From positions 1-64,000 of the forward strand of contig CAJXKL010000004.1 of assembly GCA_913055915.1 (NCBI GenBank): a stretch of DNA of 64,000 nucleotides. The letters run 5' to 3'. The stretch is from an uncultured Candidatus Nemicrothrix sp. (lineage in GTDB: Bacteria > Actinomycetota > Acidimicrobiia > Acidimicrobiales > MedAcidi-G1). Made by a program: the position numbers and the translations under genes. This document shows, one piece after another, positions 35,768 to 54,295 of the stretch. The notes under the pieces were generated by a model that was not told the DNA's origin, did no database searches, and saw nothing but the letters and a program-made list of their open reading frames with translations. How positions within the stretch are numbered: the stretch's first letter is position 1; each line of letters opens with the position of its first letter.

Positions 35768-36268
35768 TCAGGCAACACTCCGACCCTTGAGCAGGGCTAG
35801 GATCCCACCGGAAGCGAGGATCCTGCGCATCTCCTCCGGTAGCGGATCGGCCCTTAGTTCGACAAGGCTGGCGACGTTGGTGACCACGCCGGTGACGAGG
35901 TCGACCTGGATGTCGTCACCATCCGCGAAAGCAGCGTGGATTCCGGTGCAGATCAGTGCCGGCAGCCCAACTGCGATGGCGTTGCGCATGAACAGCCGCG
36001 ACAGGGACTCGGTGACCACACAGGCCACCCCGAGGGCCTTCAGGTTCTCAGCAGCAGTCTCCCTGCTGGACCCACAACCGAAGTTGCGGCCCGCAACGAT
36101 GATGTCGCCGGCCACCACCTCGTTGGCGAACTCCGGGATGACGGACTCCAGCACATGGAGCTTCCTCACCTCGACCGGGTCGACGGCATACGCACCGGGT
36201 GACAGCACATCGGTGCTGATGTCGTGGTCGAGCCTCCAGGCTCTACCACGGAGTATGTCGTCAGCCAT
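35768..36268 (-). CDS. leuD: 3-isopropylmalate dehydratase-like small subunit
   Basis: A 166-aa swivelling-domain subunit of the short (archaeal-type) isopropylmalate/homoaconitate isomerase class. It starts ILRGRAWRLDHDISTD and has the conserved GRNFGCGSSRE. It pairs with the LeuC-like protein encoded immediately upstream, with an 8-bp overlap. The substrate could be isopropylmalate, homoaconitate or a methylated malate. Confidence 0.88.
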   Translation of the reverse strand: MADDILRGRAWRLDHDISTDVLSPGAYAVDPVEVRKLHVLESVIPEFANEVVAGDIIVAGRNFGCGSSRETAAENLKALGVACVVTESLSRLFMRNAIAVGLPALICTGIHAAFADGDDIQVDLVTGVVTNVASLVELRADPLPEEMRRILASGGILALLKGRSVA

Positions 36269-37532
36269 CGGATGCCCCCAGTTTTCTTGGATCGGCGATG
36301 TGCCCGGCGAGGGCCGACGCCGCCACGGTTGCGGGGGAGGCCAAGAATATCTCAGCCTCGGAACTCCCCATGCGCCCGATGAAGTTGCGGTTGTGGGTAC
36401 CGATACAGCGCTCACCGGGTGCCAACAACCCTCCATGGCCACCGAAGCAGGGACCGCAACCCGGGGCGAGGATCGAGGCGCCGGCCTCAACGAGCGTCGC
36501 CGCCACCCCGGTCTCCAGGGCCTCACCGAGGACGGCTCGTGACGCTGGAGCAACGAGGAGCCTCATACCCGGAGCAATGTGGTGTCCGGCCAGGACCTCG
36601 GCTGCCGCCCGCAGGTCCTCGATTCGTCCGTTCGTACAGGAACCGATGAATGCCTGGTTGAGGCTGATGCCCTCCACTTCTGTGACCGGACTGACCTGGT
36701 CGACCTCGTGGGGAAGTGCAACCTGTGGTTCGAGGTTCGAGAGCGCAATCTCGTGGACGGCCTCGTAGGTGGCATCGGCATCTGGTTCGAACGGTTCGGT
36801 GCCAGCACCCCCGTGGCTCCGCAGGTAGGTGTCCGTGACCCCGTCGGCTGCGAACAGTCCGAACTTGGCGCCCATTTCAAGGGCCATGTTGCAGACCGTG
36901 AGCCGACTGGACATGTCTGCCCCGGCCACAGCGGGTCCGGCGAATTCAATCGCCCGGTACTGGGCACCATCGGCGCCGAAGCGGCCGGCGAGGTGCAGGA
37001 TCACGTCCTTCCATGAGACCCCGGCCATCAGATCGCCGGTCATCTCGAAGCGGATGGTCTCGGGAACGCGGAACCAGAGTTGTCCGGTAGCCAGGGCGTA
37101 GACCATGTCGGAGGTGCCGATGCCCGTTCCACCGGCGCCGAGGGCCCCATAGGTGGTGGTGTGGGAATCGGTGCCTACGACGAGGTCACCCGGGCGGATG
37201 TGGCCATGCTCGGGCAGAAGTTGGTGGCAGATCCCCCGGCCGGCGTCGTAGAAGGCGGTGATGCCGAGTCTCGAGATGTGTTCCCGGATGCTCTGGTGGA
37301 TGGCCGCCGCCGCCTCCGAGGGGGCCGGCACCAGATGGTCGATGACGACCACGATCCGGTCCGGATCAAAAACCTGATCCAGGCCCGTGTCACGGAGCAG
37401 GTTGAACACCTGGGCGGCGAAGATGTCGTGCAGCAGGGCCAGGTCGATCTCGGCCATGACGAACTCCCCGGCGGCCACCTGGTCCCGTCCGGCAGAGCGG
37501 GCCAGAATGCGTTCCGCGAGGTTCATCCCCAT
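36261..37532 (-). CDS. leuC: 3-isopropylmalate dehydratase-like large subunit
   Basis: A 423-aa aconitase-family protein of the short, archaeal-type class. Substrate and cluster residues appear in VGTDSHTTTYGALG, GSCTNGR and CGPCFGG, giving the three Cys of a [4Fe-4S] cluster. Start chosen because GGAGG lies seven bases upstream. It lies in an operon with an isopropylmalate-synthase-like enzyme and 2-oxoacid oxidoreductases but no LeuB-like dehydrogenase. Leucine synthesis, homocitrate-type chain elongation and dimethylmalate metabolism are all possible. Confidence 0.9.
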   Translation of the reverse strand: MGMNLAERILARSAGRDQVAAGEFVMAEIDLALLHDIFAAQVFNLLRDTGLDQVFDPDRIVVVIDHLVPAPSEAAAAIHQSIREHISRLGITAFYDAGRGICHQLLPEHGHIRPGDLVVGTDSHTTTYGALGAGGTGIGTSDMVYALATGQLWFRVPETIRFEMTGDLMAGVSWKDVILHLAGRFGADGAQYRAIEFAGPAVAGADMSSRLTVCNMALEMGAKFGLFAADGVTDTYLRSHGGAGTEPFEPDADATYEAVHEIALSNLEPQVALPHEVDQVSPVTEVEGISLNQAFIGSCTNGRIEDLRAAAEVLAGHHIAPGMRLLVAPASRAVLGEALETGVAATLVEAGASILAPGCGPCFGGHGGLLAPGERCIGTHNRNFIGRMGSSEAEIFLASPATVAASALAGHIADPRKLGASDG

Positions 37533-37548: not shown

Positions 37549-38295
37549 TCAACCTGCCCCCAGGCTACGACCACCACAGACGTAGAGCGTCTGTCCGGTC
37601 ACGTACGAGGACTCGTCCGAGGCCAGGAACAGCGCAGCGTTGCCGATGTCCTCAGGTGTCCCGATTCGGCGGGCCGGGATGGTCTTGATGAGACGTTCCT
37701 GCACCTCGTCCTTGAGTCCCCGAAAGAGTGGGGTGTCGACGAGGGCCGGGGCTATGCAGTTGGCGGTCACCCCATAGCGGGCCATTTCCAGTGCCAGCGA
37801 GCGGGTCAGGCTCACAACTGCCCCCTTGGAGGCTGCGTAGTTGGTCTGCCCCGCTCCCCCCAACCACGCACGTGAGGTGATGTTGACGATCCGACCGGAC
37901 TCCTGTTCCATCATGTGGGGCACAACTGTCCGGCAGCAGAGGAACTGTGACCTCAGGTTGACGTCGATGACGACGTCCCAGTCCTCGTCGCTCATCTTTG
38001 CCAGCCAGCCGTCCCGGGCGATGCCCACGTTGTTCACGATGATGTCGACTCTGCCGTAGGCATCCAGTGCTGCCGCCACGAGGCTCTCTGCTCCTTCGGC
38101 GGTTGCCACGTTGGCGGCATGGCCCGTTGCCTCGAGGCCGTCGGTAGCGAAGCCTGAGACCACAGCGTCGACCTTCTCGGTAATCAGGTCGTTCAGCACG
38201 ACCTTCGCCCCAGCTGTGGCAAGGACTCTGGCAATGCCCTTGCCTATGCCCTGACCTGAACCGGTGACGATTGCCACCCTGTCCGTCACACCCAT
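37549..38295 (-). CDS. SDR oxidoreductase (FabG/3-hydroxyacyl-CoA dehydrogenase-like)
   Basis: A 248-aa classical SDR: TGSGQGIGKGIA, IVNNVGIARDG, NITSRAWLGGAGQTNYAASKG with the Ser-Tyr-Lys triad. AGGAGG lies seven bases before the ATG. In an acyl-CoA operon with an enoyl-CoA hydratase and a CoA transferase it probably oxidises a 3-hydroxyacyl-CoA. Confidence 0.9.
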   Translation of the reverse strand: MGVTDRVAIVTGSGQGIGKGIARVLATAGAKVVLNDLITEKVDAVVSGFATDGLEATGHAANVATAEGAESLVAAALDAYGRVDIIVNNVGIARDGWLAKMSDEDWDVVIDVNLRSQFLCCRTVVPHMMEQESGRIVNITSRAWLGGAGQTNYAASKGAVVSLTRSLALEMARYGVTANCIAPALVDTPLFRGLKDEVQERLIKTIPARRIGTPEDIGNAALFLASDESSYVTGQTLYVCGGRSLGAG

Positions 38296-38317: not shown

Positions 38318-39130
38318 TCAACGTCCCTTGAACTCTGGTTGTCGCTTCTCGATGAAGGCCTGGATCCCCTCGTTCCGGTCCTCACTGGCCCGTAGCACGG
38401 CGTGGCTCGTAGCCTCCAGTTCCAGTCCGCTCTCAAGGTCTGTCTCGGTCGCCCGGTTGACCAGCGCCTTCACCCGATCGTGGGAGAGCGGGGCGCGACC
38501 GGCGATCCGCATGGCCAGCGCCATCACCTCTTCCATGAGACCGTCATCTGGAACCACCCGGTTCACGAGTCCCATGCGAAGTGCGTCAGCGGCGCTGACG
38601 TGGTCGGCTGTGAACATGAGTTCCTTGGTGTACGCGGGCCCAATCAGTCGGGTGGCCCGTTGTGTCCCGCCGGCGCCGGGCAGGCTCCCCACCTTGGCTT
38701 CCGGGAAGCCCAGGCGGGCTCCCTCGGCTGCCACCCGGACATCGCCGGCGAGGGCCAACTCAAGGCCTCCCCCGAGCGCGTAGCCACGGATCGCGATGAT
38801 GACCGGCAGGTGGAGGCCCTCCAGTCGACCGAACACATCGCGTACGAGGATCCCGAGTGGATCGTGGATGAGGCCGGCCTCGAACTCGGGGCCCCTGCTC
38901 TTGAGGTCGGCACCGACGCAGAATGCCTTCTCCCCGGACCCGGTCACCACGAGGACCCGTGTTTCGGGGTCAGACTCGACGTCGTCGAGGATGCCGGACA
39001 TCGTCTCCAGCATCGCAACGGTCATCGAGTTGAGCGCTTCTGGGCGGTTGAGGGTGAGCACCCCCACGGCGCCGTCCTTCTCATAGAGCACGGGTCCATC
39101 CACGTTGGCACCTGGCTTGTCGTCTGTCAC
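38318..39130 (-). CDS. Enoyl-CoA hydratase
   Basis: A 270-aa crotonase with a textbook oxyanion hole ([32 protein letters not shown]) and [18 protein letters not shown], which has the catalytic Glu. GGAGAGGAG precedes the GTG start. Paired with the SDR downstream it could carry two successive beta-oxidation steps in aromatic ring catabolism. Confidence 0.92.
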
Positions 39131-39153: not shown

Positions 39154-40359
39154 CTATCTGTGCCCGGCACCGCCCACCACCCCGGTCTGGAGCAGTTCGC
39201 GGATCTCATCGTCTTCGAAGCCCTTCTCGGCCAGGATCACCTCGGTGTGCTCGCCGGGAATGGGTGGCGGTGGGCCGGTGAAGTCACATGGTGTTCCCGA
39301 CAGGCGGCCCGGGAATGGCGGTGCCGTAACTTCACCCACAGCGGGGTGTCGGACCGTGACCAGGGAGTCTCCCCGGGACACATGTTCCTCGGCCACGAGT
39401 TCCGGGTAGGTGAGAAGTGGGCCACAGATGACATCGACCTCGTCCAGCAGGGTGATCCACTCAGCGGTGGTCCTCTCGGCGAACAGCGGTTCCAGTACCT
39501 CGCGTAGTTCCGGCCTGACCCTGACGCGCTTCTCGTTGGTGTCAAAACGCGGATCTGCCGCAAGTCCCGGCTGTCCGAGCGCTCCACAGAGTGCGGGCCA
39601 CCGTGCCGGCGTGTAGGCGGCGACCATCACCTGGCCATCCCTGGTGGCGAACGCCTCGTTCGGTGCCGCATAGGGGGCGGCGCTTCCGAGCCGCGTCGGA
39701 GGCTGTCCGCTGGCGAGGAACATCGAGAGCGGGATGAGCTGGTAGGCGAGGAGGGAATCCAGGAGGGACACGTCGATCCGCTGTCCCTGACCGGTCCGCT
39801 CACGCACGAGGAGCGCAGCCAGGATGGACTGTGATGCGTAGACGCCCCCTGCCATGTCGGCAGCCGGTACGCCTACCTTCACCGGTGGGCCGTCGGCGGT
39901 TCCGGTGACGCTCATGATCCCGCCCATCGCCTGGGCGACGCCGTCGACACCGGGCCGGTCACGCCACGGTCCATCCTGGCCGAATGCTGAGATGGCGGTA
40001 TAGACGAGCCGCGGGTTGCGTGCAGCCATCGCCTCGTAGCCGGTGCCGAGGCGGTCCGCTACCCCGGGTCGGAAGCTCTCCAGGGCCACGTCGCAGCGTT
40101 CAGCCAGCCTCAGGACGACCTCCGATCCCCCTGGTTCCTTGAGGTCGACGACGATGCTGCGCTTGTTGCGGTTCATTCCCAGGAAGGCGGCGGCAACACC
40201 TTCAACGAACGGCGGGCCCAGCCCCCTTCCCCATTCGCCTCCGGGAGGTTCGACCTTGATCACCTCGGCACCCAGATCGCCCAGGTACATCGAACAGGTT
40301 GGCCCGGCCGCGCCCTGGGAGAGGTCCAGAACGGTGATTCCATCGAGGGGCCCGCTCAT
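39154..40359 (-). CDS. CaiB/BaiF family (class III) CoA transferase
   Basis: A 401-aa family III CoA transferase: [38 protein letters not shown] and the catalytic Asp in [13 protein letters not shown]. It would activate an acid by moving CoA from another thioester, such as succinyl-CoA. The ATG overlaps the stop of the TetR gene. The acid substrate is not evident; an aromatic or dicarboxylic acid is plausible in this setting. Confidence 0.9.
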
Positions 40360-40967
40360 CGTTCGCCCACATTGTCGGGTATCGCACTCCTCTCCATGGC
40401 AACGCCATGGACGGCCAGGTCAGCGAACTGGCTGGCGATCTCCTCGGGGGCGAGGCCACCACCGGGCTGGTACCAGCGCACCGCTGAGTTGCACATGCCC
40501 AGAACGGCCCTAACGGTGAGGTCGATGTCCTGGTCCACGAACGCGGCCGATGCGATGCCCTCTTCGATGATGTTCCTGAAGATGAACTCGTAGCGGTCAC
40601 GCTTTGCCACGTGGGCCGTCATGAACTCCGAGGAGAGGTACCGACCCTCCTCGATGAAGCAGGCCTGGGCATCACGGTCGTGTATTCCCTCGACGGTGTG
40701 GAGGTAGACGGCCCGGTGCAGCCGCTCCGTGACCGGAAGGTCCAATTCGGCCACCTCCCGTAGGAGCGGGGTTACCCGGTTCACCGTCAGGTCGATGATC
40801 TCCGCCAGAAGGGCCTGCTTACTGGGGAAGTGGTGGTAGAGGCTGGACTTGGTGATTCCCACTTCGGCTGCAAGGTCGGCCATGCTGGTCCCGTTGAACC
40901 CCCTCTCGCTGAAGAGGGTCGCAGCGACCAGGCGGATGCGGTTCCCGGTGGTCGGTGCGTCGGTCAT
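40356..40967 (-). CDS. TetR family transcriptional regulator (inside operon)
   Basis: A 203-aa repressor-type protein. The HTH is RIRLVAATLFSERGFNGTSM, then LAAEVGITKSSLYHHFPSK. Four-base overlaps on both sides place it in the middle of the catabolic operon, an unusual site for a regulator, and suggest feedback control through the palindrome upstream of the operon. Confidence 0.9.
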   Translation of the reverse strand: MTDAPTTGNRIRLVAATLFSERGFNGTSMADLAAEVGITKSSLYHHFPSKQALLAEIIDLTVNRVTPLLREVAELDLPVTERLHRAVYLHTVEGIHDRDAQACFIEEGRYLSSEFMTAHVAKRDRYEFIFRNIIEEGIASAAFVDQDIDLTVRAVLGMCNSAVRWYQPGGGLAPEEIASQFADLAVHGVAMERSAIPDNVGER

Positions 40968-41500
40968 CGTTCATCGCCAGCGACGAGTCGCATGCCGGCC
41001 TCCAGGGCCTCCAGGTTCATCTCGCAGTGCCTGGTCGGGACCCTGTCAGCGACCGCCCTGCACAGCGTTGCCGCTTCGACGACTCCGGTCAGGGCCTGCA
41101 GGACACCGAGGGCCACCACCCCGCTGACGAGTTGGCCTCCGCTGACCGAGCGGGCGGTGTCGACGATCGGATACGGGCGGTCACTGGTCCTGAGGTCGGT
41201 GGGGACACAACGGCTGTCGACAACCAGGCGGCTCCGGTCTGCGAGTTCAGGGTGGTACCTGGAGCAGGCTTCACCACTCAGGGCGACGAGGAGGTCGATC
41301 TCCTCGGCTAGCGGGTAGCCGATCCGCTCGGTTGCGATCACCACGTCCGAGCGGCTGGCCCCTCCACGCGACTGGGGCCCGTAGACCTGGTTGTGGATGG
41401 CCTCCGCTCCCGACAGGATCGCCGCCTCCGCGAGAATCCGACCGGCCGTGACCACCCCCTGGCCGCCGGCGCCTGCTATCCGGTATTCGCTACGGTCCAT
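40964..41500 (-). CDS. korC: 2-oxoacid:ferredoxin oxidoreductase gamma subunit
   Basis: A 178-aa gamma domain: RIAGAGGQGVVTAGRILAEAA, then NQVYGPQSRGGASRSDVV, the signature of the 2-oxoacid:acceptor oxidoreductase gamma chain. With the alpha and beta chains encoded immediately upstream it completes a heterotrimeric enzyme that decarboxylates a 2-oxoacid to acyl-CoA and reduces ferredoxin. It overlaps the beta gene by 11 bp. Confidence 0.87.
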   Translation of the reverse strand: MDRSEYRIAGAGGQGVVTAGRILAEAAILSGAEAIHNQVYGPQSRGGASRSDVVIATERIGYPLAEEIDLLVALSGEACSRYHPELADRSRLVVDSRCVPTDLRTSDRPYPIVDTARSVSGGQLVSGVVALGVLQALTGVVEAATLCRAVADRVPTRHCEMNLEALEAGMRLVAGDER

Positions 41501-42314
41501 GGCTGCCTTCCCCGTGGACACCGGTGAACACGGGCCTTTCCTCGCGCTGGATGATTCCGGTAGCCATTCCCGGCGGTGCGGTCGAGGAGGGTACGTGGTT
41601 GACGAACCGTTTGGAGGACAGCGGGCCGGTCACGCCTACTTCACGTCCGGCCATCCATGTGAGCATGTCCGCACCACCCCCCATCCCGTTGTAGCGGCCG
41701 TAGTACTCGGGGCAGTCGCTGACCACCTCGATGAACGAGAAGCCACTGTGTGTCATGCCCTCGACCATGACCCTGGTCATCTCGATCGGATTGGCTGCGA
41801 GAACGCGTGCCACAAAGGATGCTCCAGCGCCGATCAGCAGCTTGCAGGCATCGAAGTTGGGTTCGGTGTTCCCCCCCGGTGTGGTCGATGCCACTGCACC
41901 GGTAGGAGTTGTCGGGGCGGCCTGGCCTCCGGTCATTCCGTAGATCGAGTTGTTTAGGAGGAGGACCGTAATGTCAATGTTCCTGCGTGCGGCATGGATC
42001 AGGTGGTTGGCACCGATGGCGAGGCCGTCTCCGTCGCCGGTGACAACCACGACGTGGAGTTCCGGGCGTGCCATCTTCAGCCCGGTGGCGAAGGCAGGCG
42101 CTCGGCCGTGGGTTCCGTGCAGCGTGCAGAAGTCCACATAGCCGACAAGGCGGCTGCTGCAGCCGATGCCGGCCACCATCGCAAGCCTGTTCCTGTCTAT
42201 CTCCTGTTCGTCGACAGCTTCTAGAAATGACCGGAGCACGATGCCGTGGGCGCAACCGGGGCACAGGACGTGTGGCATCGCCCACTCGCGGAGGTGATCC
42301 CGGACATCGGTCAT
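41490..42314 (-). CDS. korB: 2-oxoacid:ferredoxin oxidoreductase beta subunit
   Basis: A 274-aa thiamine diphosphate subunit. Cluster Cys are in VLCPGCAHG, GIGCSSR and SDCPEYYGR, and the ThDP-binding motif is GDGDGLAIGANHLIHAARRN. Homologous to KorB of 2-oxoglutarate:ferredoxin oxidoreductase. ATGA overlap with the alpha gene. Confidence 0.92.
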   Translation of the reverse strand: MTDVRDHLREWAMPHVLCPGCAHGIVLRSFLEAVDEQEIDRNRLAMVAGIGCSSRLVGYVDFCTLHGTHGRAPAFATGLKMARPELHVVVVTGDGDGLAIGANHLIHAARRNIDITVLLLNNSIYGMTGGQAAPTTPTGAVASTTPGGNTEPNFDACKLLIGAGASFVARVLAANPIEMTRVMVEGMTHSGFSFIEVVSDCPEYYGRYNGMGGGADMLTWMAGREVGVTGPLSSKRFVNHVPSSTAPPGMATGIIQREERPVFTGVHGEGSHGP

Positions 42315-43447
42315 GTCCTCACCGCCCCGGCGCCCGAGATGGCAGCCACGAGGTCGGTCGGCGTGATCGGTTCGCCGTCGGCGCGCAGGTGGCCCACTAT
42401 CTCGCTTCTACCGGCCGCTGCCCGTTCGACCTCGCCGATGAGTTGTCCGAGGTTCATCTCTGCGACGAGGAGTGTGTCGACCTGTGCGGCCACCTCGCCG
42501 ACCTGGTGGTAGGGGAAGGGCCACAGCGTGAGTGGCCGGATCATTCCGACCCTGATACCGGCTTCGCGGGCCCGGAGGACAGCCTCGTGGGCGGATCTGC
42601 CCACGATCCCGTAGGCGAAGATGGCGATCTCAGCATCGTCCAACATGAGGGTCTCGATCTCGGTGATCTCCTCCTGGTGGTTGGTGACCTTGTCGTGGAT
42701 TCGGGTGATGAGTGCCCCAGCCTGCCCCGGGTCGGTGGTGGGGAAGCCACGCTCATCGTGTGTCAGCCCCGTCACATGGAACCGGTAGCCGTCGCCGAAT
42801 GCGGGCATCGGGGGGACGCCGTCAGGGGGTGCCGCCTTGGGTAGGAAGGTGGACGGGTCTCCGTTCGGCCGTGGCCGGCTGATGACGTCGACCGAGTCCG
42901 GGAACACGACGCTCTCTCGGGTGTGGCCGATGATCTCGTCGTAGATGAGGGTCACCGGGGTGCGGAACCGTTCGGCCAGGTTGAAGGCCTTCACGGTGAG
43001 GTTGAAGACCTCACCTACCGACGAGGGAGCCAGAACGATGGATGGATGGTCACCGTGGGTGCCCCAGCGGGCCTGCATCACATCGCCCTGGGACGGCGAT
43101 GTCGGGAGGCCTGTACTGGGGCCGCCCCTCATGACGTTGACGACCACGCACGGGACCTCGGCCATCGTGGCGAACCCGATGTGTTCCTGCATCAGGGAGA
43201 AGCCGGGCCCGCTGGTGGCGGTCATCGCCCTCGACCCGGCGAGGGATGCCCCGATGACGGTTGCAAGCGACGCGATCTCGTCCTCCATCTGCACGAACAC
43301 GCCGCCGGCGTCGGGTAGGAACCTGACCATCAGTTCGGCAATCTCAGACGAAGGCGTTATCGGGTAGCCGGCGTAGAAGTTGCATCCGGCCGCAAGCGCC
43401 CCCCGGACGCAGGCCTCGTTTCCCTGGACGAGCTTCGCCCCGCTCAC
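42311..43447 (-). CDS. korA: 2-oxoacid:ferredoxin oxidoreductase alpha subunit
   Basis: A 378-aa KorA-type chain without a fused gamma domain. Characteristic stretches are GNEACVRGALAAGCNFYAGYP, TPSSEIAE and SGPGFSLMQEHIG, and the HGDHPSIVLAPS loop. The GTG start overlaps the IorB stop (GTGA). 2-Oxoglutarate is a likely substrate by analogy with Thauera, where this enzyme regenerates reduced ferredoxin for benzoyl-CoA reductase. Confidence 0.92.
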   Translation of the reverse strand: MSGAKLVQGNEACVRGALAAGCNFYAGYPITPSSEIAELMVRFLPDAGGVFVQMEDEIASLATVIGASLAGSRAMTATSGPGFSLMQEHIGFATMAEVPCVVVNVMRGGPSTGLPTSPSQGDVMQARWGTHGDHPSIVLAPSSVGEVFNLTVKAFNLAERFRTPVTLIYDEIIGHTRESVVFPDSVDVISRPRPNGDPSTFLPKAAPPDGVPPMPAFGDGYRFHVTGLTHDERGFPTTDPGQAGALITRIHDKVTNHQEEITEIETLMLDDAEIAIFAYGIVGRSAHEAVLRAREAGIRVGMIRPLTLWPFPYHQVGEVAAQVDTLLVAEMNLGQLIGEVERAAAGRSEIVGHLRADGEPITPTDLVAAISGAGAVRT

Positions 43448-44322
43448 GGTGGATCACCGGCTGATGCGACCAACTCCCCCCGGGAGACATTTTCGGTGGG
43501 AGGGCTGACGGCTATGGCGAAGTCGGGACAGAGCAGCTCACACAACCTGCAACCGGTGCAGGCTTCGGCATCGACGAGGGCCAGTTCCCCGTCGATGCCA
43601 ACTTCCAGGCAGTACTCGGGGCACACCCGCGAACAGATGTCACAGCCCTTGCACCATTCGTGCCTGATGTCGATCTCGTGGGGTCCCGGGAAGCCATCGG
43701 GGTCAGCCGGTCTCGGTGGAATCGATGCCTCGACCACCTCGCATCCAGCCCTGAATGAAGTCAGGTTCACCGCCTCGGTTCCGGCGGGCACCAGCCGCTC
43801 GATGGCGGCCTCCCAGTGGACGTGTTCGATGTCCAAGAATGCGGCCACCGAACCCAGTATCACGCTGTTGGCCGCCCTGATGTTGCCGAGTTCGGCAGCG
43901 GTCGATGAAGCATCGACGATTCGGGTCTTGAGGGTGCGACGGCCCAAGAGGTCGGGATCGATGTCGGGGTAGCGGATCGACCACGATCGCCTGTCGGTGC
44001 AGGAGCCTGGTGGAACGATCGTTCGAAGGTCGGCGACCACGGCTCCACCCTCGCGGACGTACTCGACCCATCGCAGGGCCTCGGCCCACTCGAAGGCAGC
44101 GAGCACCTCAGCACTTCCCAGCGGTACGAGGGGGCTGTCGACGCTTGATCCCCAGCGGATGTGGCTGAACACGGAACCACCCCGCTGGGCCATTCCGTGC
44201 ACCTCGCTCTGCTTGACGTCGTGGCCTGCCCGGACCAGCGCGTCGGCCACGATCATTCCCGCCAGGATCACGCCCTGACCGCCGACCCCGGCCAACAGGA
44301 GCCCACTTGAGTCGTCAGACAC
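43444..44322 (-). CDS. iorB: Indolepyruvate:ferredoxin oxidoreductase beta subunit fused to a 2[4Fe-4S] ferredoxin
   Basis: A 292-aa fusion. The first ~200 residues are an IorB/gamma-type domain (LLLAGVGGQGVILAGMIVA, then HGMAQRGGSVFSHIRWG). The last ~70 residues are a ferredoxin with two Cys-X2-Cys-X2-Cys-X3-Cys sets (CKGCDICSRVCP and CTGCRLCELLCP). A normal IorB is about 200 aa without clusters. The GTG start overlaps the iorA stop by 8 bp. Confidence 0.88.
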   Translation of the reverse strand: MSDDSSGLLLAGVGGQGVILAGMIVADALVRAGHDVKQSEVHGMAQRGGSVFSHIRWGSSVDSPLVPLGSAEVLAAFEWAEALRWVEYVREGGAVVADLRTIVPPGSCTDRRSWSIRYPDIDPDLLGRRTLKTRIVDASSTAAELGNIRAANSVILGSVAAFLDIEHVHWEAAIERLVPAGTEAVNLTSFRAGCEVVEASIPPRPADPDGFPGPHEIDIRHEWCKGCDICSRVCPEYCLEVGIDGELALVDAEACTGCRLCELLCPDFAIAVSPPTENVSRGELVASAGDPP

Positions 44323-46159
44323 CGGTACGTACCTCGATCTCGCTCGAGGGGGTCGGCAGGATTGCCAGCGGTGGACAGAGTTGTGCGCACAGCGTGCACC
44401 CGGTGCACGTGATCGGGTCGATAGACACCTTGCGTCTACCCTCAAATGTTTCATCGGACCAGACGATCGATGGGCAACCGGCGGTCATACAGGCCTGGCA
44501 CGCTGTACACGCATCGGCGATCACCTCGTAGGGCCTGTCGCGGACCTTGGTGGGCGCCTCGACGCAGGGCCGGTTGGTGATCACGACCGAGGGGCCGGGG
44601 CTTGCGATGGCGGCCTCGAGTGCGCCGTAGGTGGCTCCCAGGTCGTACGGGTCGACAACCCTCACGTCGTCGACACCCAGCGCCCTGCACAGGGCCAGCA
44701 GGTCGACCGGGGTCGTCTCTGACTCCTGCAACGTGATACCGGTGCCGGGGTGTTCCTGGCCTCCGGTCATGGCGACCGTGCCGTTGTCGAGGATCAGGAC
44801 GGTTATGTCGGCCTGGTTGTAGACGGCATCCACGAGGCCGGGGATGCCACCGTGGAGGAAGGTGGAGTCGCCGATGGTTGCCACTACCGGTCCCTGGGCT
44901 CCTCCGGATGCAGCCATCCCTGCGGCCATGCCGATGCTGCTTCCCATGGCGACACATGTGTCCATTGCGGACAGCGGAGCGAGGGCCGCCAGCGTGTAGC
45001 AGCCGATGTCACCGGTCACCACGGCACCGAGTCGTCGTAGGGCGAGGAACGGCGGCGTATGTGGACACCCGGGGCACATCAGTGGCGGTCGGGCGACCGT
45101 TGGTGGAGCTGGCTCGATCGTGGGTCCATCCGGCAGGGCTAGCGCAGTGGCGAAACCCCGTCGAACGGCGTCGGGGCCGAGCTCTCCGGCCTGGGAGAAG
45201 AAGGCCTTTCCCTCCACGGCGATGCCGGCGGCAAGGATGTCGTTCTCAAGGTACGGGTCGAGTTCCTCGACTACCAGCAGGCGGTCCACCGACTCGGCGA
45301 AGGCACGAATGGCCTTGATCGGTACCGGGTAGCTCATGCCCAGCTTGAGAATCTTCGCGTCGGGCAGGGCCTCCCTGACGTAGTTGTGGGCGATACCGGA
45401 TGTCACCACCCCGATGTCAGAACTGCGCCCGGATTCGACCGTCAGCGGGCTGGCTTCGACGTACCCGGTAAGCCTTTCGAGCCGCTTCAGCATCTCGGGC
45501 CGGCGAAGTCGGGCGTGGCTGGGGATCATCACGTATTTTCTCGGGTCCCGTGTGAAGCCCGTTGTCGGGTGTTCGATCCTGGGGCCCAGCCTGACGAGAC
45601 CCCGGTTGTGGGACACCCGGGTTGTCGTGCGGACCAGGACGGGGGTGTCGAACTCCTCGGAGATGGCGAAGGCGATCGTCGTGTATTCCCTGGCTTCAGA
45701 ACTGTCAGCGGGTTCGAGAAGTGGGACGCCAGCCATGCGCGCAAACCCCCGGTTGTCCTGCTCGTTCTGCGAACTGTGCATGCCGGGATCGTCGGCTGTG
45801 ACGATTACGAGTCCGGCACCTACCCCGGTGTAGGCAGTGGTCATGAAGGTGTCGGACGCGACGTTGAGGCCGACGTGTTTCATCGTCGCCAGTGCCCTGA
45901 CCCCACCCAGCGACGCACCCAGGGCCACGTCAAGGGCCACCTTCTCGTTGGTTGCCCAGCGCACGTCGATGTCATCGCGGTCGGCGATTGACTCGAGGAT
46001 CTCAGTGCTCGGCGTTCCCGGATAGCCGGTGGCGACCAGCACCCCGGCCTCGACCGCACCGCGGGCAACTGCCTCGTTGCCTGAGAGGAGTACGCGTGAC
46101 CCGATCCCGGTGTCAGCGTCGCCTTCTACCTCGGAATCGGCGATCGTGTCGACGGTCAT
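44315..46159 (-). CDS. iorA: Indolepyruvate:ferredoxin oxidoreductase alpha subunit
   Basis: A 614-aa chain combining the pyrimidine-binding and ThDP domains (GNEAVARGAVEAGVLVATGY; GDSTFLHGGIPGLVDAVYNQ) with a C-terminal 2[4Fe-4S] ferredoxin (CTACQACMTAGCP and CTGCTLCAQLCPP). Indolepyruvate-type enzymes convert aryl pyruvates to aryl-acetyl-CoA and reduce ferredoxin. The start forms an ATGA overlap with the isopropylmalate-synthase-like gene. Confidence 0.92.
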   Translation of the reverse strand: MTVDTIADSEVEGDADTGIGSRVLLSGNEAVARGAVEAGVLVATGYPGTPSTEILESIADRDDIDVRWATNEKVALDVALGASLGGVRALATMKHVGLNVASDTFMTTAYTGVGAGLVIVTADDPGMHSSQNEQDNRGFARMAGVPLLEPADSSEAREYTTIAFAISEEFDTPVLVRTTTRVSHNRGLVRLGPRIEHPTTGFTRDPRKYVMIPSHARLRRPEMLKRLERLTGYVEASPLTVESGRSSDIGVVTSGIAHNYVREALPDAKILKLGMSYPVPIKAIRAFAESVDRLLVVEELDPYLENDILAAGIAVEGKAFFSQAGELGPDAVRRGFATALALPDGPTIEPAPPTVARPPLMCPGCPHTPPFLALRRLGAVVTGDIGCYTLAALAPLSAMDTCVAMGSSIGMAAGMAASGGAQGPVVATIGDSTFLHGGIPGLVDAVYNQADITVLILDNGTVAMTGGQEHPGTGITLQESETTPVDLLALCRALGVDDVRVVDPYDLGATYGALEAAIASPGPSVVITNRPCVEAPTKVRDRPYEVIADACTACQACMTAGCPSIVWSDETFEGRRKVSIDPITCTGCTLCAQLCPPLAILPTPSSEIEVRTGV

Positions 46160-47412
46160 GTCGTATTGACCTCGCTCAACAGCCCCAGGATCTCGGTTTC
46201 GCTCAGTACGTGGTCTGAGCTCTTTGCGGCGGCCAACACCTTCTCGACGGTTGGATCGTCGAATGTGTGCCCGTGGCTGCTCAGCCATGCGACGGCGTTG
46301 GCCCTTCCGCTCATCGGGCCCACGCTGATCTCCTGTTCGCGCCCGAGCACATCGGCGGGGACACCGCTGTAGATGCGGTTGGCCAGCCATGTGTCACCGG
46401 TCCGCATGGCCTTGAGCACGGCGGCGGCATGGACGCCTGTACTGGTTTCAAAGGCGTTATTCCCTATTGCGGGGTAGTTGCTTGGAATCGGCGTGTCCGT
46501 CGCCTTCGAGATGGTTTCGCAGTACGAGGGCAGGGAATGGAGATCGTTGTCCAGCCAGCCCAGTAGCTTGAGGTTCACCATGAGCGTGTCGGTCGGAGTG
46601 TTGCCGACCCGCTCGCCGATGCCGAGGCCACAGGTGTGGACCCGGTCTGCGCCAGCTGAGAGGGCGGCAATTGAGTTGATTACCGAGAGGCCCCGGTCGC
46701 TGTGCCCGTGCCAGTCGATCTTCACGTCCTCGCCACTGTCGGCGACGATCTCCTGGGCGAATTCAACGAGGGCCCGCACCCCCCAGGGCGTGGAATGGCC
46801 GACGGTGTCAGCTAGGCAGATCCGGTAGGCACCCGCCTCGATGGCTGCGGTGTAAACGGTCCGCAGGGCCTCGGGCCGCGCCCTTGTGGTGTCCTCGGTG
46901 ACGTACATGACCTCAAGGCCCTCATTGCGGGCGAGGGCCACTCCCTCCTCCGTCGTGCGGACCAGGAAGTCCAGGTCCCAGCCCTCCACGTACTGACGGA
47001 TCGGGCTGGAACCGAGAAACAGGGCAGCTTCGATGGCCACTCCTGAGCGCTGCTGGGCTTCGCTGATCGGCAGGATGTCGGCGGCATGGGTTCGGCCGGC
47101 GCAGTTGGGCTGAATAGACAGGTCCGGGCCACCAGCGGCCTCGGCGAGCGCCGTCACGTGGTCGAGCATCGTGGTGCCTGCACCCGGGTAGCCGATATCG
47201 GCGGCTTGGATGCCCAGTTCTCCCATCAGGTGAAGCATCTCCAGTTTCTCACCCAGGCGCGGCTGTCGTACCGACGGGCTCTGCAGGCCGTCGCGGAGGG
47301 TCTCGTCGTTGATTTCCACGGTGCTGGGTCGTCGGAGCTCGTCTTCTCCGACCAGGTTCCAGTCGTGGAGGTACTGCTCTTCCCTGCTGTGACCCCGTTC
47401 TTCCTGTTCCAT
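46156..47412 (-). CDS. Isopropylmalate-synthase/HMG-CoA-lyase-like protein
   Basis: A 418-aa HMGL-family TIM barrel, first gene of the operon. Metal and acid/base residues appear in INDETLRDGLQSPSV, DWHGHSDRGLSV (HxH) and CGLGIGERVGNTP, followed by SNYPAIGNNAFETSTGVHAAAVL. It lacks the long LeuA regulatory domain. The chemistry would be an acetyl- or acyl-CoA plus 2-oxoacid condensation (isopropylmalate, homocitrate or citramalate type) or the reverse lyase. AAGGA lies seven bases before the ATG; an ATG at 47418 is also possible. Confidence 0.82.
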   Translation of the reverse strand: MEQEERGHSREEQYLHDWNLVGEDELRRPSTVEINDETLRDGLQSPSVRQPRLGEKLEMLHLMGELGIQAADIGYPGAGTTMLDHVTALAEAAGGPDLSIQPNCAGRTHAADILPISEAQQRSGVAIEAALFLGSSPIRQYVEGWDLDFLVRTTEEGVALARNEGLEVMYVTEDTTRARPEALRTVYTAAIEAGAYRICLADTVGHSTPWGVRALVEFAQEIVADSGEDVKIDWHGHSDRGLSVINSIAALSAGADRVHTCGLGIGERVGNTPTDTLMVNLKLLGWLDNDLHSLPSYCETISKATDTPIPSNYPAIGNNAFETSTGVHAAAVLKAMRTGDTWLANRIYSGVPADVLGREQEISVGPMSGRANAVAWLSSHGHTFDDPTVEKVLAAAKSSDHVLSETEILGLLSEVNTT

Positions 47413-47748
47413 GTGCATCCTTGGGTAACTTGCCCGTCCGACCGGTCGGACGCCACCCCTAGAGGGTCCCAGTGAGGGGCCCTGCTGACAATCCTGTTGT
47501 TGCTTCATTTTTTTGATGCGAACACATCATTCGTCCGGATGGAGCGTGTTTCAGGGCGCCGTTTCACCTGGTCCGGCTCAATTGTGAATGGGGCCGATGG
47601 ACTAGATAATTGAGGCTGTTACCTCATTGACTGGACTGGGAATGGGGGATGACACTCGGGGGGTGAACCTGGTCGACCGAACGGCCGGACGGTTATGGTC
47701 GAGTGAAGTAATCCGCCGGACCGCAGCAGACCTGAGCATGGAGGAGAG
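47413..47748. promoter_or_regulatory. Divergent control region of the two catabolic operons
   Basis: No gene is supported here. The region separates the 12-gene minus-strand operon from the hcr/had/oah/dch operon and must hold both promoters. Visible elements: a perfect 18-bp palindrome (47435-47452), a small inverted repeat TGATG/CATCA near 47510-47526, and an imperfect 18-bp palindrome ACCGAACGGCCGGACGGT (47676-47693, two mismatched pairs), 55 bp before the plus-strand start. Confidence 0.65.
47435..47452. promoter_or_regulatory. Perfect 18-bp palindrome, candidate TetR operator
   Basis: CGTCCGACCGGTCGGACG lies 22 bp upstream of the isopropylmalate-synthase-like start. Its core GACCGGTCGG recurs before the bzd regulator gene at a nearly identical distance. 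Confidence 0.7.
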
Positions 47749-48180
47749 TTGTTGGAAGTCGAGACGGCGGTTTCCTTTCGCCCCGGTGAGTTGGAGGTTG
47801 ACTCCAGCGGGGCTGGCCACCTGCTCGGCAGCCGGTGTGCCTCGTGTGGCGCACACTTCTTCCCCGTTCGCCAAGCCTGCGCCGGTTGCCTCGGCACCGA
47901 CCTGGAGGCGGTCAGGCTTTCTACGACCGGGACGCTCTACACCTTCTCGATAGTCAGGCAGTCGACGCCCGAGTTCGAGGTTCCGTACGCCCTCGGCTAC
48001 GTCGACTTCAGCGAGGGCGTCCGCATAATGGGCCAGATCAGCGGATGCGACCTCGAAGACATCTGGATCGGAATGCAGCTGAGCCTCTCCGTCGAACCCT
48101 TCGGCGAGGACGAGGATGGGAATCAGCTCAGCGGCTACCGGTTCCGGCCGACCGAGGCGGGAAGTGGAGGTGGGTCATGA
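47749..48180 (+). CDS. Zn-ribbon/OB-fold (DUF35) acyl-CoA-associated protein
   Basis: A 143-aa DUF35 protein: a rubredoxin-like zinc ribbon (CASC and CAGC) followed by an OB-fold domain (STTGTLYTFSIVRQSTPEF). Such proteins partner with thiolases, and a thiolase gene follows with an ATGA overlap. GAGGAGAG precedes the TTG start. It opens the plus-strand aromatic operon. Confidence 0.82.
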   Translation: MLEVETAVSFRPGELEVDSSGAGHLLGSRCASCGAHFFPVRQACAGCLGTDLEAVRLSTTGTLYTFSIVRQSTPEFEVPYALGYVDFSEGVRIMGQISGCDLEDIWIGMQLSLSVEPFGEDEDGNQLSGYRFRPTEAGSGGGS

Positions 48181-49319
48181 CCGACGTCCACATTCTCGGG
48201 GTCGGGATGACCCGATTCGGAAGGCACCCCGACAGTGATGCTTCCGACCTGGGAGCCGAGGCCCTACTCGAAGCAATAGCCGACGCCGAAATCGACGCCC
48301 GGGCCGTTGAAGCCGCCTACTGCGGACACGTGTTCCAGGGAATGGTCACCGGCCAACGGATCCTCGCACAGGTTGGCCTGGCGGGCCTGCCACTCACCAA
48401 TGTCGAGAACGCCTGCAGCAGTGGAGCAACCGCAATCAGGGAGGCGTCTCTCGCCATCCGGGCTGGCGAGCACGACGTCGTCGTTGCAATCGGCACCGAG
48501 CACCTCACCTCCCGGTTCCGGGGAGCGCTGACCCCTGACCCGAGTGACCCTGAGGCGGCCGTCGGAGCGACCATGCCCGGCGTATATGCGATGAGGGCGA
48601 GGCGCTACATGGAGGAGTTCGGGATGACCCGGGAACAGCTCGCGCTGATCCCCGTCAAGAACAAGGGCAACGCTGCTCGCAACCCCCTGGCACACTTCAG
48701 GACGCCGATCACCGTCGAGGAGGTGTTGGAGTCGCGCCCGATCGCCGATCCGCTCAACCTCCACGACTGCTCACCCGTAACCGACGGGGCCGCAGCGGTG
48801 GTTGTCATGAGTGACAGGGCAGCAGGGAGGTTCGCCAACGGTCGTACCGTCCGCCTGGCCGCGTCGGCACTGCGGTCCGGCTCAGTCGACGTGGAACCCA
48901 CCTCGATGACGTTCGAACCGCTCACCTGGGCTACGGCCCGAGATGCCTACGAGAAGGCCGGTATAGGCCCTGACGATATCGACCTGGCTGAGGTTCACGA
49001 CTGTTTCAGCATCGCCGAGGTCTTACGGGTCGAGGGTCTCGGGTTGTTTGAACAGGGCAGTTATCCGACAGCCGTGGAGCGCGGCGAGGCCGACATCGGT
49101 GGCAGGCTGCCAATCAACCCGAGCGGTGGGCTGATCGGCAAGGGTCACCCCCTCGGGGGAACCGGTGTGGCCCAGGTGGTCGAGGTTGTGCGGCAGTTGC
49201 GCGGCGAGGTCGGTGACCGCCAGGTCGAAGGCGCCAAGGTGGGTGTGGCACACTGCCGGGGGGGCAAGGCCGTCGGAATCGAGGGCGCGGCGTGCACAGT
49301 TCAGGTACTGGTTCGCTGA
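48177..49319 (+). CDS. Thiolase family protein (SCP-x-like acetyl-CoA acetyltransferase)
   Basis: A 380-aa non-decarboxylating thiolase of the lipid-transfer/SCP-x type. The nucleophile is in NACSSGATAI, then VHDCFSIAE and SGGLIGKGHPLGGTG. The final site reads AHCRGGKAVG. With the DUF35 partner it would cleave or form 3-oxoacyl-CoA, plausibly in the steps after ring opening. Confidence 0.9.
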   Translation: MTDVHILGVGMTRFGRHPDSDASDLGAEALLEAIADAEIDARAVEAAYCGHVFQGMVTGQRILAQVGLAGLPLTNVENACSSGATAIREASLAIRAGEHDVVVAIGTEHLTSRFRGALTPDPSDPEAAVGATMPGVYAMRARRYMEEFGMTREQLALIPVKNKGNAARNPLAHFRTPITVEEVLESRPIADPLNLHDCSPVTDGAAAVVVMSDRAAGRFANGRTVRLAASALRSGSVDVEPTSMTFEPLTWATARDAYEKAGIGPDDIDLAEVHDCFSIAEVLRVEGLGLFEQGSYPTAVERGEADIGGRLPINPSGGLIGKGHPLGGTGVAQVVEVVRQLRGEVGDRQVEGAKVGVAHCRGGKAVGIEGAACTVQVLVR

Positions 49320-50470
49320 CCACCGAACCAGGGGAGCAGATCCGACTGCCGTTCGTCCTCATGCGGGGTGGAACGAGCAGGGCGGTGTTCCTCCGCGGGG
49401 GTGATCTGCCCGACGACACCGGGTACCGCGACGCCACGATACTGTCGCTCTTCGGCAGCCCGGACCCGCGTCAGGTTGACGGCCTCGGGGGCGCCGACCT
49501 GCTGACCAGCAAGCTTGCCGTCATCGACCCCCCGAGCCGACCCGATGCCGACATCAACTACACCTTCGCCCAGGTGAGCATCACTGAACCCGTCGTCGAC
49601 TACGACATCAACTGCGGCAACATCTCCGCAGCGGTCGGGGCCTACGCCGTCGATGAAGGTCTGGTGGACCCGGTGGAGCCCGTCACCACCGTGCGTATCC
49701 ACAACACCAACACCGGACGGATGCTCACAGCGGAGGTACCGGTTGTTGATGGTGCCGCAGCTGTCGAAGGCACCTGTGCTGTCCACGGCGTGCCCGGAAC
49801 CGGTGCTCCGATAGCACTCGACTTCGGTGAAACCGCCGGAGGCACCACGGGGGCACTGTTTCCCACCGGCAATCAGGTTGATGTGCTCGATACCTCCGTC
49901 GGACCCGTTCGGGCCACCATTGTCGACCTTGCCAACCTCACTGTGTTCCTACCGGCAGGGGATGTCGGGATGGTCGGGACCGAAGGACCCGAGGAGTTCA
50001 GCGAGGAGCAGATTGGCGCAATCACCGCAGCAAAGGAGGCGGCTGCCCGTCTCCTCGGGATGGCACCCGATGGCCTGACCCCTGTCCCTGCGATCGTCTC
50101 CCCGTCGGCCGGCTACGTGGACTACTCAACGGGTGGTTCCGTTGTTCCAGACGAGATCGACCTCGTCGCAAGGGTGGTTGGTGGTCGCCCGGCAGTTCCC
50201 CACAAGGCCTACCCCGGGACCCTGGCTGCCTGCACGGGGGTGATGGCATGCATCCCCGGGACGACGGTCAACGAGGTCGCCGGCCAGGGGTGTGAAGGTG
50301 AGATTCGAATCGGTCATCCGTGTGGTGTGATGCCGGTCCAGGTTCGTGTCGGCCGTGACGCAGGTGGCTGGAGGATCGACCGGGCCGTCTTCCACCGCAC
50401 GGCCCGTCGGCTTGCCGAGGGCACGGCGTTCATCCGGCGATCTTCAATCTCCGGGGTCAAGGGCAACTGA
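49292..50470 (+). CDS. PrpF-family isomerase (methylaconitate/oxalomesaconate isomerase-like)
   Basis: A 392-aa diaminopimelate-epimerase-fold protein. It shows MRGGTSRAVFL near the N-terminus, DINCGNISAAVGAYA with the first catalytic Cys, and GHPCGVMPVQV with a second. PrpF-type enzymes shift the double bond of methylaconitate or oxalomesaconate. A tricarboxylate isomerase inside a 4-hydroxybenzoyl-CoA reductase operon is unexpected; it may act on a ring-cleavage product. The GTG start lies inside the end of the thiolase gene; TGATG overlap with hcrC. Confidence 0.82.
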   Translation: MHSSGTGSLTTEPGEQIRLPFVLMRGGTSRAVFLRGGDLPDDTGYRDATILSLFGSPDPRQVDGLGGADLLTSKLAVIDPPSRPDADINYTFAQVSITEPVVDYDINCGNISAAVGAYAVDEGLVDPVEPVTTVRIHNTNTGRMLTAEVPVVDGAAAVEGTCAVHGVPGTGAPIALDFGETAGGTTGALFPTGNQVDVLDTSVGPVRATIVDLANLTVFLPAGDVGMVGTEGPEEFSEEQIGAITAAKEAAARLLGMAPDGLTPVPAIVSPSAGYVDYSTGGSVVPDEIDLVARVVGGRPAVPHKAYPGTLAACTGVMACIPGTTVNEVAGQGCEGEIRIGHPCGVMPVQVRVGRDAGGWRIDRAVFHRTARRLAEGTAFIRRSSISGVKGN

Positions 50471-50940
50471 TGGCGGAACAGGTCATTTCCCTTCAGGTCA
50501 ACGGCGCGGAACACAGGATCCTGACTGCTGACCACCGCACCCTCCTCGAGGTGCTGCGCGAGGACATGGCGATGGTCGGAACCAAGCATGGCTGTGACCT
50601 GGGTGAATGTGGAGCCTGCACCGTGTTGTTGGATGGTCGGCCCGTGCTGGCCTGTCTGGTGCTGGCCGTACAGGTTGATGGACGAACCATCACGACCATT
50701 GAGGGCATGGCAGAGGACGGGACCCCCCACCCCCTCCAGACGGCGTTTTCAGAAAAGGGTGCAGCGCAGTGCGGCTACTGCACACCCGCCATGCTGCTCA
50801 CGGCGCGGGCTCTCCTCGACGAGGTTCAGGCCCCGGACCCGGACGACATCAGACAGGCCCTCGCTGGCAACCTCTGCCGCTGCACCGGCTACAACAAGAT
50901 CATCGAGGCCGTTGAGGCAGTCGCTGGGGCTCAGGACTGA
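50470..50940 (+). CDS. hcrC: 4-hydroxybenzoyl-CoA reductase-like [2Fe-2S] subunit
   Basis: A 156-aa subunit of the xanthine oxidase family. The plant-type cluster is CDLGECGACTVLLDGRPVLAC and the second cluster CGYCTPAMLLTARALL with CRCTGY. Coupled by overlaps to PrpF upstream and hcrA downstream. It passes electrons from the FAD subunit to the molybdenum centre. Confidence 0.87.
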   Translation: MAEQVISLQVNGAEHRILTADHRTLLEVLREDMAMVGTKHGCDLGECGACTVLLDGRPVLACLVLAVQVDGRTITTIEGMAEDGTPHPLQTAFSEKGAAQCGYCTPAMLLTARALLDEVQAPDPDDIRQALAGNLCRCTGYNKIIEAVEAVAGAQD

Positions 50941-53315: not shown

Positions 53316-54295
53316 CCATGCGGCTCCCGAACTTCGAATATGTCGCCCCGGCAACGGTCGATGAGGCGGCCCGGCTGCTCTCCGACCCCGGGCGGTCGTC
53401 GTTGATCGTAGGTGGCGGTACCGACCTCTTTCCCAAGATTAAGCGCCGGCAGGCCGCTCCAACCACGCTCGTCTCACTGTCCGGGGTCGACGAAATGAGA
53501 GGCGTTCGCTTCGATTCAGCGGGCAACTGTGTCATCGGTGCTTCGACGCTTCTGGCTGACCTGGCGGTATCGCACCAGGTCCCTCCGGTGATGGCGATCG
53601 CCGCCGCGAGCATCGCCTCACCACAGATTCGCAATACAGCGACGGTTGGCGGGAACCTCTGCCTCGATACCCGATGCAACTACATCGACATGCCGGAGAC
53701 CTGGAGAGAGGCAAGCGGCCACTGCCTGAAGGACGGTGGCGAGGTCTGTTGGGTGGCCCCACGAGGTAATCGGTGCTGGGCAATCAACTCATCCGACCTG
53801 GCACCGGTGGCCGTCGCCCTCGAGGGGTCGGTGCGGCTCACGAGCGTGCATGGAGAAAGGCTCATTCCGGTCGAGGACCTGTACCACGACGACGGGATCG
53901 CCTGTCACACCAAGTCTTTCGAGGAGATCCTCGTTGAACTCCTTCTACCGTCGGGTGGCACACGGGCCACGTACAGGAAGCTACGGAGACGGGGATCGAT
54001 CGACTTTCCCCTCCTGGGGGTGGCCGCTTCGGCCCGGTTCGACGAAGCCGGCACGTGTGTTTCTGCTCGCATGGTCATAGGGGCAGCCGCGCCCGCCCCC
54101 GTGCGTGCCACAGAGGCCGAGGAGTTCCTCATCGGCCGACAGTTCACTGACGAGGTCATCGGAGAGGCAGCTGGAATCGCATCCGGTCCGGTGCGTCCCC
54201 AGGACAACACAGACACCGGTTCGCGCTACCGGAAGTGGATGGTTCCGGTCCTTGTAGGGCGGGCTCTGAGCGACCTGGTGGCTGACGATGGGTAG
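53312..54295 (+). CDS. hcrB: 4-hydroxybenzoyl-CoA reductase-like FAD/[4Fe-4S] subunit
   Basis: A 327-aa FAD subunit (IVGGGTDLFPKIK; TVGGNLCLDTRC). A loop not found in ordinary xanthine-oxidase FAD subunits carries Cys122, Cys138, Cys146 and Cys155, the same positions that bind the extra [4Fe-4S] cluster in Thauera HcrB (positions recalled from memory). This cluster reverses electron flow towards the substrate, so it strongly supports a reductive dehydroxylase. ATGA overlap with hcrA. Confidence 0.9.
   Translation: MTMRLPNFEYVAPATVDEAARLLSDPGRSSLIVGGGTDLFPKIKRRQAAPTTLVSLSGVDEMRGVRFDSAGNCVIGASTLLADLAVSHQVPPVMAIAAASIASPQIRNTATVGGNLCLDTRCNYIDMPETWREASGHCLKDGGEVCWVAPRGNRCWAINSSDLAPVAVALEGSVRLTSVHGERLIPVEDLYHDDGIACHTKSFEEILVELLLPSGGTRATYRKLRRRGSIDFPLLGVAASARFDEAGTCVSARMVIGAAAPAPVRATEAEEFLIGRQFTDEVIGEAAGIASGPVRPQDNTDTGSRYRKWMVPVLVGRALSDLVADDG

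Follow-up and report, generated by a model that had tools for sequence, protein, structure and literature searches.

Both 4-hydroxybenzoyl-CoA reductase (Hcr) and benzoyl-CoA reductase (Bcr) require low-potential electrons, provided by ferredoxin. In Thauera, the 2-oxoglutarate oxidoreductase KorAB supplies the reduced ferredoxin for ring reduction, and in some Rhodopseudomonas strains KorAB lies beside the benzoate genes (PMC9973337). Here we examine a locus of an uncultured Candidatus Nemicrothrix sp. (Acidimicrobiia) in which two such oxidoreductases, IorAB and KorABC, are encoded together. The analysed stretch of 64,000 nucleotides (the window) comprises positions 1–64,000 of the forward strand of contig CAJXKL010000004.1 from assembly GCA_913055915.1. 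The genes iorA, iorB, korA, korB and korC run head-to-tail from 46159 to 40964 on the reverse strand, and an earlier, sequence-only reading had placed them as five coupled genes opposite the hcr/oah genes, suggesting a dedicated electron supply for the ring reductase. Coordinates and profile matches confirm their position and identity, and the junction overlaps point to their coupling, with the operon being larger than claimed: a run of 12 reverse-strand genes (47508–35768) in the order HMGL-iorA-iorB-korA-korB-korC-tetR-caiB-ech-sdr-hacA-hacB. This context indicates that the Ior–Kor pair is probably part of a catabolic route, beyond a mere power supply for ring reduction. Specifically, in our estimate the evidence is evenly poised for the proposal that IorAB and KorABC, joined through a fused delta domain, form an integral component of a conserved module for the anaerobic conversion of arylacetates and/or arylpyruvates to (4-hydroxy)benzoyl-CoA.

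The first line of evidence comes from the chains themselves, for which family calls were made using profile models with curated cut-offs (TIGR, NF and Pfam) and closest-structure calls by sequence comparison against all PDB chains. IorA scores above the cut-off of the IOR_alpha model TIGR03336 (669.3 against 650.9 bits) and ends in a Fer4 pair, a C-terminal ferredoxin domain that is standard for this family. The sequence-only reading had assigned 2[4Fe-4S] domains to both Ior chains, and the Fer4 matches bear this out; only that of IorB is unusual. IorB combines a POR gamma domain with two C-terminal 4Fe-4S motifs, falls under the IOR beta cut-offs (139.8 versus 205.8 bits for TIGR03334; 187 versus 237 for the best beta model) and is, judged by its sequence, a diverged, fused IOR beta homologue. 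Its C-terminal domain alone has Helicobacter pylori OorD as the best PDB match (8ys5_D, 2e-10), and the top ferredoxin-type models for this domain are those of the OorD/OGOR delta subunits. KorA matches the Pyrococcus furiosus-type 2-ketoacid:ferredoxin alpha chain (1yd7) and H. pylori OorA, and KorABC as a whole displays the alpha, beta and gamma chains with the thiamine pyrophosphate and [4Fe-4S] sites, the cysteines being visible in the sequence and korA alone scoring above its cut-off. The order delta-alpha-beta-gamma is thus retained, with the delta subunit forming the C-terminus of the upstream IorB. A motif search of the open reading frames of the window recovered no free korD/OorD subunit, and the CxxCxxCxxxC motif occurs in no other frame of the 64 kb. 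The ATG of iorA at 46159 overlaps the stop of the preceding HMGL gene by 4 bases, and the overlaps within the unit (iorA/iorB 8 bases, iorB/korA 4, korA/korB 4, korB/korC at least 11 and korC/tetR 4) indicate translational coupling.

The fused domain also tracks the kor genes. The iorA-iorB-korA adjacency holds in 21 of the 22 loci examined, all 21 IorBs with korA downstream possess the C-terminal dicluster domain, and three IorBs without neighboring kor genes lack it. The wiring of Ior to Kor is further supported by IorA having a dicluster domain of its own, by the lack of any further delta subunit for KorABC among the genes of the operon, and by the five genes staying joined outside the module, as in a thermoleophile where they stand together, apart from both the module and bcr. 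Hence, the "fused ferredoxins" of the sequence-only reading look like one ordinary IorA domain plus one OorD-like delta subunit serving as internal Ior–Kor wiring. A point against this is the predicted structure of IorB (gamma domain plus ferredoxin domain, mean predicted local distance difference test score 82.8), whose layout is similar to that of the oxalate oxidoreductase gamma-delta chain and of domains III–V of pyruvate:ferredoxin oxidoreductase (PFOR); since oxalate oxidoreductase has a like gamma-delta fusion, the delta domain may serve IorAB alone, with Ior and Kor being independent enzymes in a shared operon. We consider this improbable, as the domain is present only with korABC downstream, is nearest to OorD, and would be added to an IorA already equipped with two clusters.

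The second line of evidence is the phyletic and contextual distribution. Among 148 genomes of the class Acidimicrobiia (12 bcrC-positive and 136 bcr-negative), the HMGL gene was found in 11 of the former and none of the latter, and full-length relatives of the IorB-ferredoxin fusion in 9 and none, respectively; in two of the three bcr-positive genomes missing IorB the contig stops near HMGL. As these genomes are not independent, we treat these counts as a strong association rather than assigning them a formal probability. When GTDB genomes were searched more widely using the HMGL profile, the module also turned up in further Actinomycetota, in an armatimonadete and, within Bacillota, in Sulfobacillus and its relatives. 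At least 21 loci preserve the Ior–Kor unit, and nearly all of them lie in genomes with a class I bcr. The Sulfobacillus cluster reads hcrCAB-hacAB-PaaK-HMGL-iorA-iorB-korABC-CaiB-ECH-SDR-DUF35-thiolase-prpF; its contig also carries bcrCBAD, roughly 10 kb from these genes. In the actinomycete metagenome-assembled genome (MAG) YP2.bin54, the bcr-hcr contig is devoid of ior/kor, which instead lie beside HMGL on another contig, and two further bcr-carrying genomes (G155 and G156) show no IorB match. Thus, the unit co-occurs with bcr at the level of the genome, but its gene linkage is to the HMGL module rather than to bcr.

These patterns bear directly on the possibility that Ior and Kor only oxidize 2-oxoacids (2-oxoglutarate and the arylpyruvates of tyrosine and phenylalanine), passing electrons via ferredoxin or directly to Bcr and Hcr. 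Such a role, which we deem possible if somewhat doubtful, would agree with the co-occurrence of ior/kor with bcr and hcr, with the KorAB precedent of Thauera and some Rhodopseudomonas (PMC9973337), and with the need for two ferredoxin-dependent reductions of 4-hydroxylated substrates. However, the unit tracks the HMGL module and not bcr, as YP2.bin54 illustrates, and G155 and G156 show no IorB match; moreover, if arylpyruvate were oxidized, Ior and HMGL would be competing for one predicted substrate, and the linkage to PaaK-type ligases described below would be left unexplained. The genome also codes for a separate housekeeping KorAB with a 620-amino-acid fused gamma-alpha chain (G000:C6), a 159-amino-acid protein whose N-terminal region is of the 2[4Fe-4S] type (G000:C10), and, on C25, a 1178-amino-acid chain with the appearance of a fused indolepyruvate oxidoreductase of the aerobic type. 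The sequence-only reading had found no stand-alone ferredoxin, which holds for the window by motif search, but not clearly for the genome given the 159-amino-acid protein; another oxidoreductase with a cognate ferredoxin elsewhere, which it had named as telling against a dedicated supply, is in part present as this second KorAB and further [4Fe-4S] protein. Its proposal of a supply to ring reduction remains plausible and partly supported by the bcr co-occurrence and the Thauera precedent, and KorABC may also feed ferredoxin to Hcr and Bcr. What is not supported is exclusivity to Bcr: the unit sits with an arylacetate/arylpyruvate module and the genome has other ferredoxin-reducing enzymes, and synteny with HMGL instead of bcr weakens any supply serving Bcr only.

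The gene content of the module suggests a conditional reconstruction of the route. A PaaK-type aryl ligase would produce arylacetyl-CoA, which, with CO2, IorAB would interconvert with arylpyruvate; HMGL would condense the latter with acetyl-CoA to 2-benzylmalate, HacAB would dehydrate this to benzylmaleate, and PrpF would shift the double bond to give phenylitaconate. CaiB would then transfer CoA from succinyl-CoA to form phenylitaconyl-CoA, ECH (the enoyl-CoA hydratase) would hydrate it to hydroxybenzylsuccinyl-CoA, the SDR would oxidize that to benzoylsuccinyl-CoA, and the DUF35–thiolase pair would release benzoyl-CoA (or another aroyl-CoA) and succinyl-CoA. The carbon balance of the predicted route closes (C9 + C2 = C7 + C4). 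Thereafter, Hcr would strip the para-hydroxyl and Bcr reduce the ring; 4-hydroxyphenyl substrates yielding 4-hydroxybenzoyl-CoA would explain the presence of hcrCAB directly after prpF. KorABC would oxidize 2-oxoglutarate; via the fused delta domain, its electrons would reach IorA, for the formation of arylpyruvate, the ferredoxin pool that serves Hcr and Bcr, or both. We found no description of a phenylpyruvate–benzylmalate–phenylitaconate–benzoyl-CoA route in the literature searched, the coverage of which was incomplete.

Several enzymes resemble proteins that fit these predicted roles. The thiolase has the benzoylsuccinyl-CoA thiolase BbsB as its best PDB match (7pxp_C, 1.3e-83), the DUF35 protein matches an archaeal thiolase partner (6esq_E) and BbsA (7pxp_A), BbsD (7pcs_B) is the best among 224 matching PDB SDR sequences, and PrpF matches the 3-methylitaconate delta-isomerase 3g7k with 370 bits, the runner-up in PDB reaching 226. 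The structural model of HMGL aligns with Claisen synthases at Z 32–42 (homocitrate synthase 41.6, methylthioalkylmalate synthase 40.5, isopropylmalate synthase about 34–36) versus 26–28 for HMG-CoA lyases. It lacks the Arg/His signature of the homocitrate synthases: Met201 aligns with their Arg and Ala137 with their His (Leu in isopropylmalate synthase), both being invariant in 16 homologs. In homocitrate synthases this Arg and His hold the distal carboxylate of 2-oxoglutarate, and their replacement suggests a roomier, hydrophobic pocket in HMGL. We rejected a housekeeping leucine synthase, as another HMGL-family gene (a 578-amino-acid frame) lies at G000:C21 and the window gene is absent in the 136 bcr-negative relatives, as well as a local half-tricarboxylic acid cycle of homocitrate/Re-citrate synthase, aconitase and Kor, with which the pocket residues disagree and which leaves PrpF, CaiB, the SDR and the thiolase unexplained.

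The same Bbs-like genes could be read as anaerobic toluene degradation, as proposed for UBA5794 actinobacteria that carry bbsA and bcrBC and were annotated as toluene degraders (PMC12008989). Besides this published annotation, the thiolase, DUF35 protein and SDR being nearest or near to the Bbs enzymes would accord with such a role. However, a search with PF02901 for a PFL-like glycyl radical enzyme found none in 7 module genomes, including that of the window, with the controls positive, and HMGL, HacAB and PrpF in the operon would yield the unsaturated acid without the BbsG step. Toluene as the entry is, therefore, largely refuted, and we regard it as exceedingly unlikely.

As for the direction of Ior, the genes for PaaK-type ligases (461–480 bits with TIGR02155, under its cut-off of 646) vary in position: in Sulfobacillus the ligase gene is flanked by hacB and HMGL, in a second genome (G022) it adjoins korC, and in a third (G062) it adjoins dch. 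In an acidobacterial MAG (L096, 2294–8244), a fusion of IorB with a PaaK-type ligase lies directly upstream of HMGL, followed by a gene for the alpha subunit of a quinohemoprotein amine dehydrogenase. AMP-forming arylacetate ligases adjoining IOR were argued in a 2026 study to favor arylpyruvate formation (PMC13285125). Given this argument and the ligase linkage and fusion, we tentatively favor, over simple oxidation, the possibility that IorAB makes arylpyruvate from arylacetyl-CoA with KorABC as the electron source. At a further locus (L083, 7993–9816) a 607-amino-acid phosphoenolpyruvate-utilizer mobile-domain protein, possibly phenylphosphate-synthase-like, lies directly upstream of HMGL.

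A number of observations weigh against the module-based interpretation. The window has no PaaK gene, and the PaaK-type ligase of the same genome (G000:C3 104000–123900, L183) sits among aerobic PaaC-like and PaaZ-like genes, by which neighbors it fits a phenylacetate ligase. The CoA-transferase is nearest to succinate–HMG CoA-transferase, with benzylsuccinate CoA-transferase ranking lower, and the ECH and HacAB assignments are at the family level only. HMGL homologs (50–58% identity) are widespread in Acidobacteria and others without the module, so HMGL alone is no pathway marker; two such module-less homologs (L088 and L102, both aligned) share the Met/Ala pocket residues, and the substrate specificity of HMGL is, from its family alone, unreadable. 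Separately, the PaaC-like, PaaZ-like and PaaK-type genes of G000:C3 suggest that the same genome also has an aerobic phenylacetate route.

A stronger form of the proposal, which we rate as rather unlikely, is that IorAB and KorABC assemble into one two-headed complex converting arylacetyl-CoA and 2-oxoglutarate to arylpyruvate and succinyl-CoA, with electrons and CO2 handled internally via the fused delta domain. It would open an undescribed oxygen-independent route from phenylacetate through phenylpyruvate, benzylmalate and phenylitaconate to benzoyl-CoA. Should the proposal of the module be right, uncultured actinobacteria and Sulfobacillus would have a new anaerobic entry to benzoyl-CoA from phenylacetate, phenylpyruvate or tyrosine-type compounds, in addition to the known alpha-oxidation route. 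It would also offer an example of two ferredoxin oxidoreductases wired by gene fusion, correct the toluene-degradation annotation of genomes with bbsA and bcrBC, and bear on electron delivery to class I benzoyl-CoA reductases outside Proteobacteria.

Table 1. Genes of the Ior–Kor locus and its surroundings in the window, with the basis of each assignment.
Feature	Position	Strand	Basis
HMGL/LeuA-type Claisen synthase, predicted 2-benzylmalate synthase	46156..47508	-	Family, alignment, class distribution
iorA, arylpyruvate:ferredoxin oxidoreductase alpha chain, 614 amino acids	44315..46159	-	TIGR03336; C-terminal 2[4Fe-4S] domain
iorB::korD, gamma domain plus OorD-like 2[4Fe-4S] delta domain, 292 amino acids	43444..44322	-	POR domain, Fer4 motifs
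korA, 2-oxoacid:acceptor oxidoreductase alpha chain	42311..43447	-	NF006412 561 bits, cut-off 411
korB, beta chain, thiamine pyrophosphate site and [4Fe-4S] cysteines	41490..42314	-	OorB/KorB families, under curated cut-offs
korC, gamma chain; start GTG 41521 or ATG 41500	40964..41521	-	NF006323 135 bits, under curated cut-off
TetR-type regulator within the operon	40356..40967	-	Profile matches
Class III CoA-transferase (CaiB), predicted succinyl-CoA:arylitaconate CoA-transferase	39154..40359	-	Profile matches, PDB comparison
Enoyl-CoA hydratase family (ECH), predicted BbsH role	38318..39130	-	Family level
SDR dehydrogenase, predicted BbsD role; ATG 38295	37549..38295	-	Closest PDB SDR is BbsD
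hacA, aconitase/isopropylmalate-dehydratase-type large subunit; start ATG 37532 or 37526	36261..37532	-	Family level
hacB, aconitase-type small subunit; ATG 36268	35768..36268	-	Aconitase_C
DUF35 protein, BbsA-like	47749..48180	+	PDB matches 6esq_E, BbsA 7pxp_A
Thiolase, BbsB-like	48177..49319	+	Closest PDB is 7pxp_C
prpF family, predicted methylitaconate-type delta-isomerase	49292..50470	+	Closest PDB is 3g7k
hcrC-hcrA-hcrB, 4-hydroxybenzoyl-CoA reductase	50470..54295	+	TIGR03193/03194/03195
had, oah, dch, lower benzoyl-CoA pathway	54317..57277	+	TIGR03201, TIGR03200 above cut-off; TIGR03189 below
bcrD, bcrA, bcrB, bcrC, class I benzoyl-CoA reductase, nearest Bcr-type	57587..61796	-	Bcr models

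The ring reductase genes are transcribed in the order bcrC-B-A-D (61796–57587, reverse strand). All four subunits match Bcr models under the equivalog cut-offs, with Bcr scoring well above Bzd for B and C; by model scores the enzyme resembles a diverged class I reductase nearer to Bcr than to the Bzd type that the sequence-only reading had assumed. An apparent fused N-terminal domain on the thiolase frame (listed start 47835) was discarded as an out-of-frame read across the separate DUF35 and thiolase genes of Table 1. Following bcrD is a gene for a 91-amino-acid cysteine-containing protein (57306–57581, reverse strand) without a Pfam match, which is 52–68% identical to proteins encoded next to bcrD in six relatives. 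A PAS-LuxR regulator adjoins hacB (35044–35745, reverse strand); relatives from the class have homologs of it in their own clusters, and a weaker homolog stands where the Sulfobacillus module begins. Elsewhere in the window are modA-modB-modC with an HTH-Mop protein (20934–23831, reverse strand), possibly for the molybdenum enzyme Hcr, a putative carbonic anhydrase (Pro_CA_2; 33043–33591, forward strand) near the module, and an alternative-type valyl-tRNA synthetase (alt_ValS; 26718–29321, reverse strand).

Set against described systems, the locus combines familiar parts in a different arrangement. As in Thauera aromatica, with its KorAB–ferredoxin system, a 2-oxoacid oxidoreductase is found in the bcr gene region, but here there are two, the window has no free ferredoxin, and they are embedded in a synthesis/beta-oxidation module. 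IorA passes the IOR alpha cut-off like that of a classical IorAB, whereas IorB is under the beta cut-offs and carries the fused OorD-like delta domain. Similarly, KorA is near the archaeal 2-ketoacid alpha chain and OorA, and the delta-alpha-beta-gamma order is that of H. pylori OorDABC, except that here the C-terminus of IorB takes the place of a free delta subunit. The aconitase-type dehydratase and Mii-like PrpF recall nicotinate fermentation, in which Mii (3g7k) is paired with dimethylmaleate hydratase; the present module differs in its predicted aryl substrates and upstream Claisen synthase. Finally, it shares BbsA-, BbsB- and BbsD-like enzymes, a CoA-transferase and a hydratase with the Bbs toluene pathway, but in place of a glycyl radical synthase its predicted entry is arylpyruvate plus acetyl-CoA via HMGL, HacAB and PrpF.

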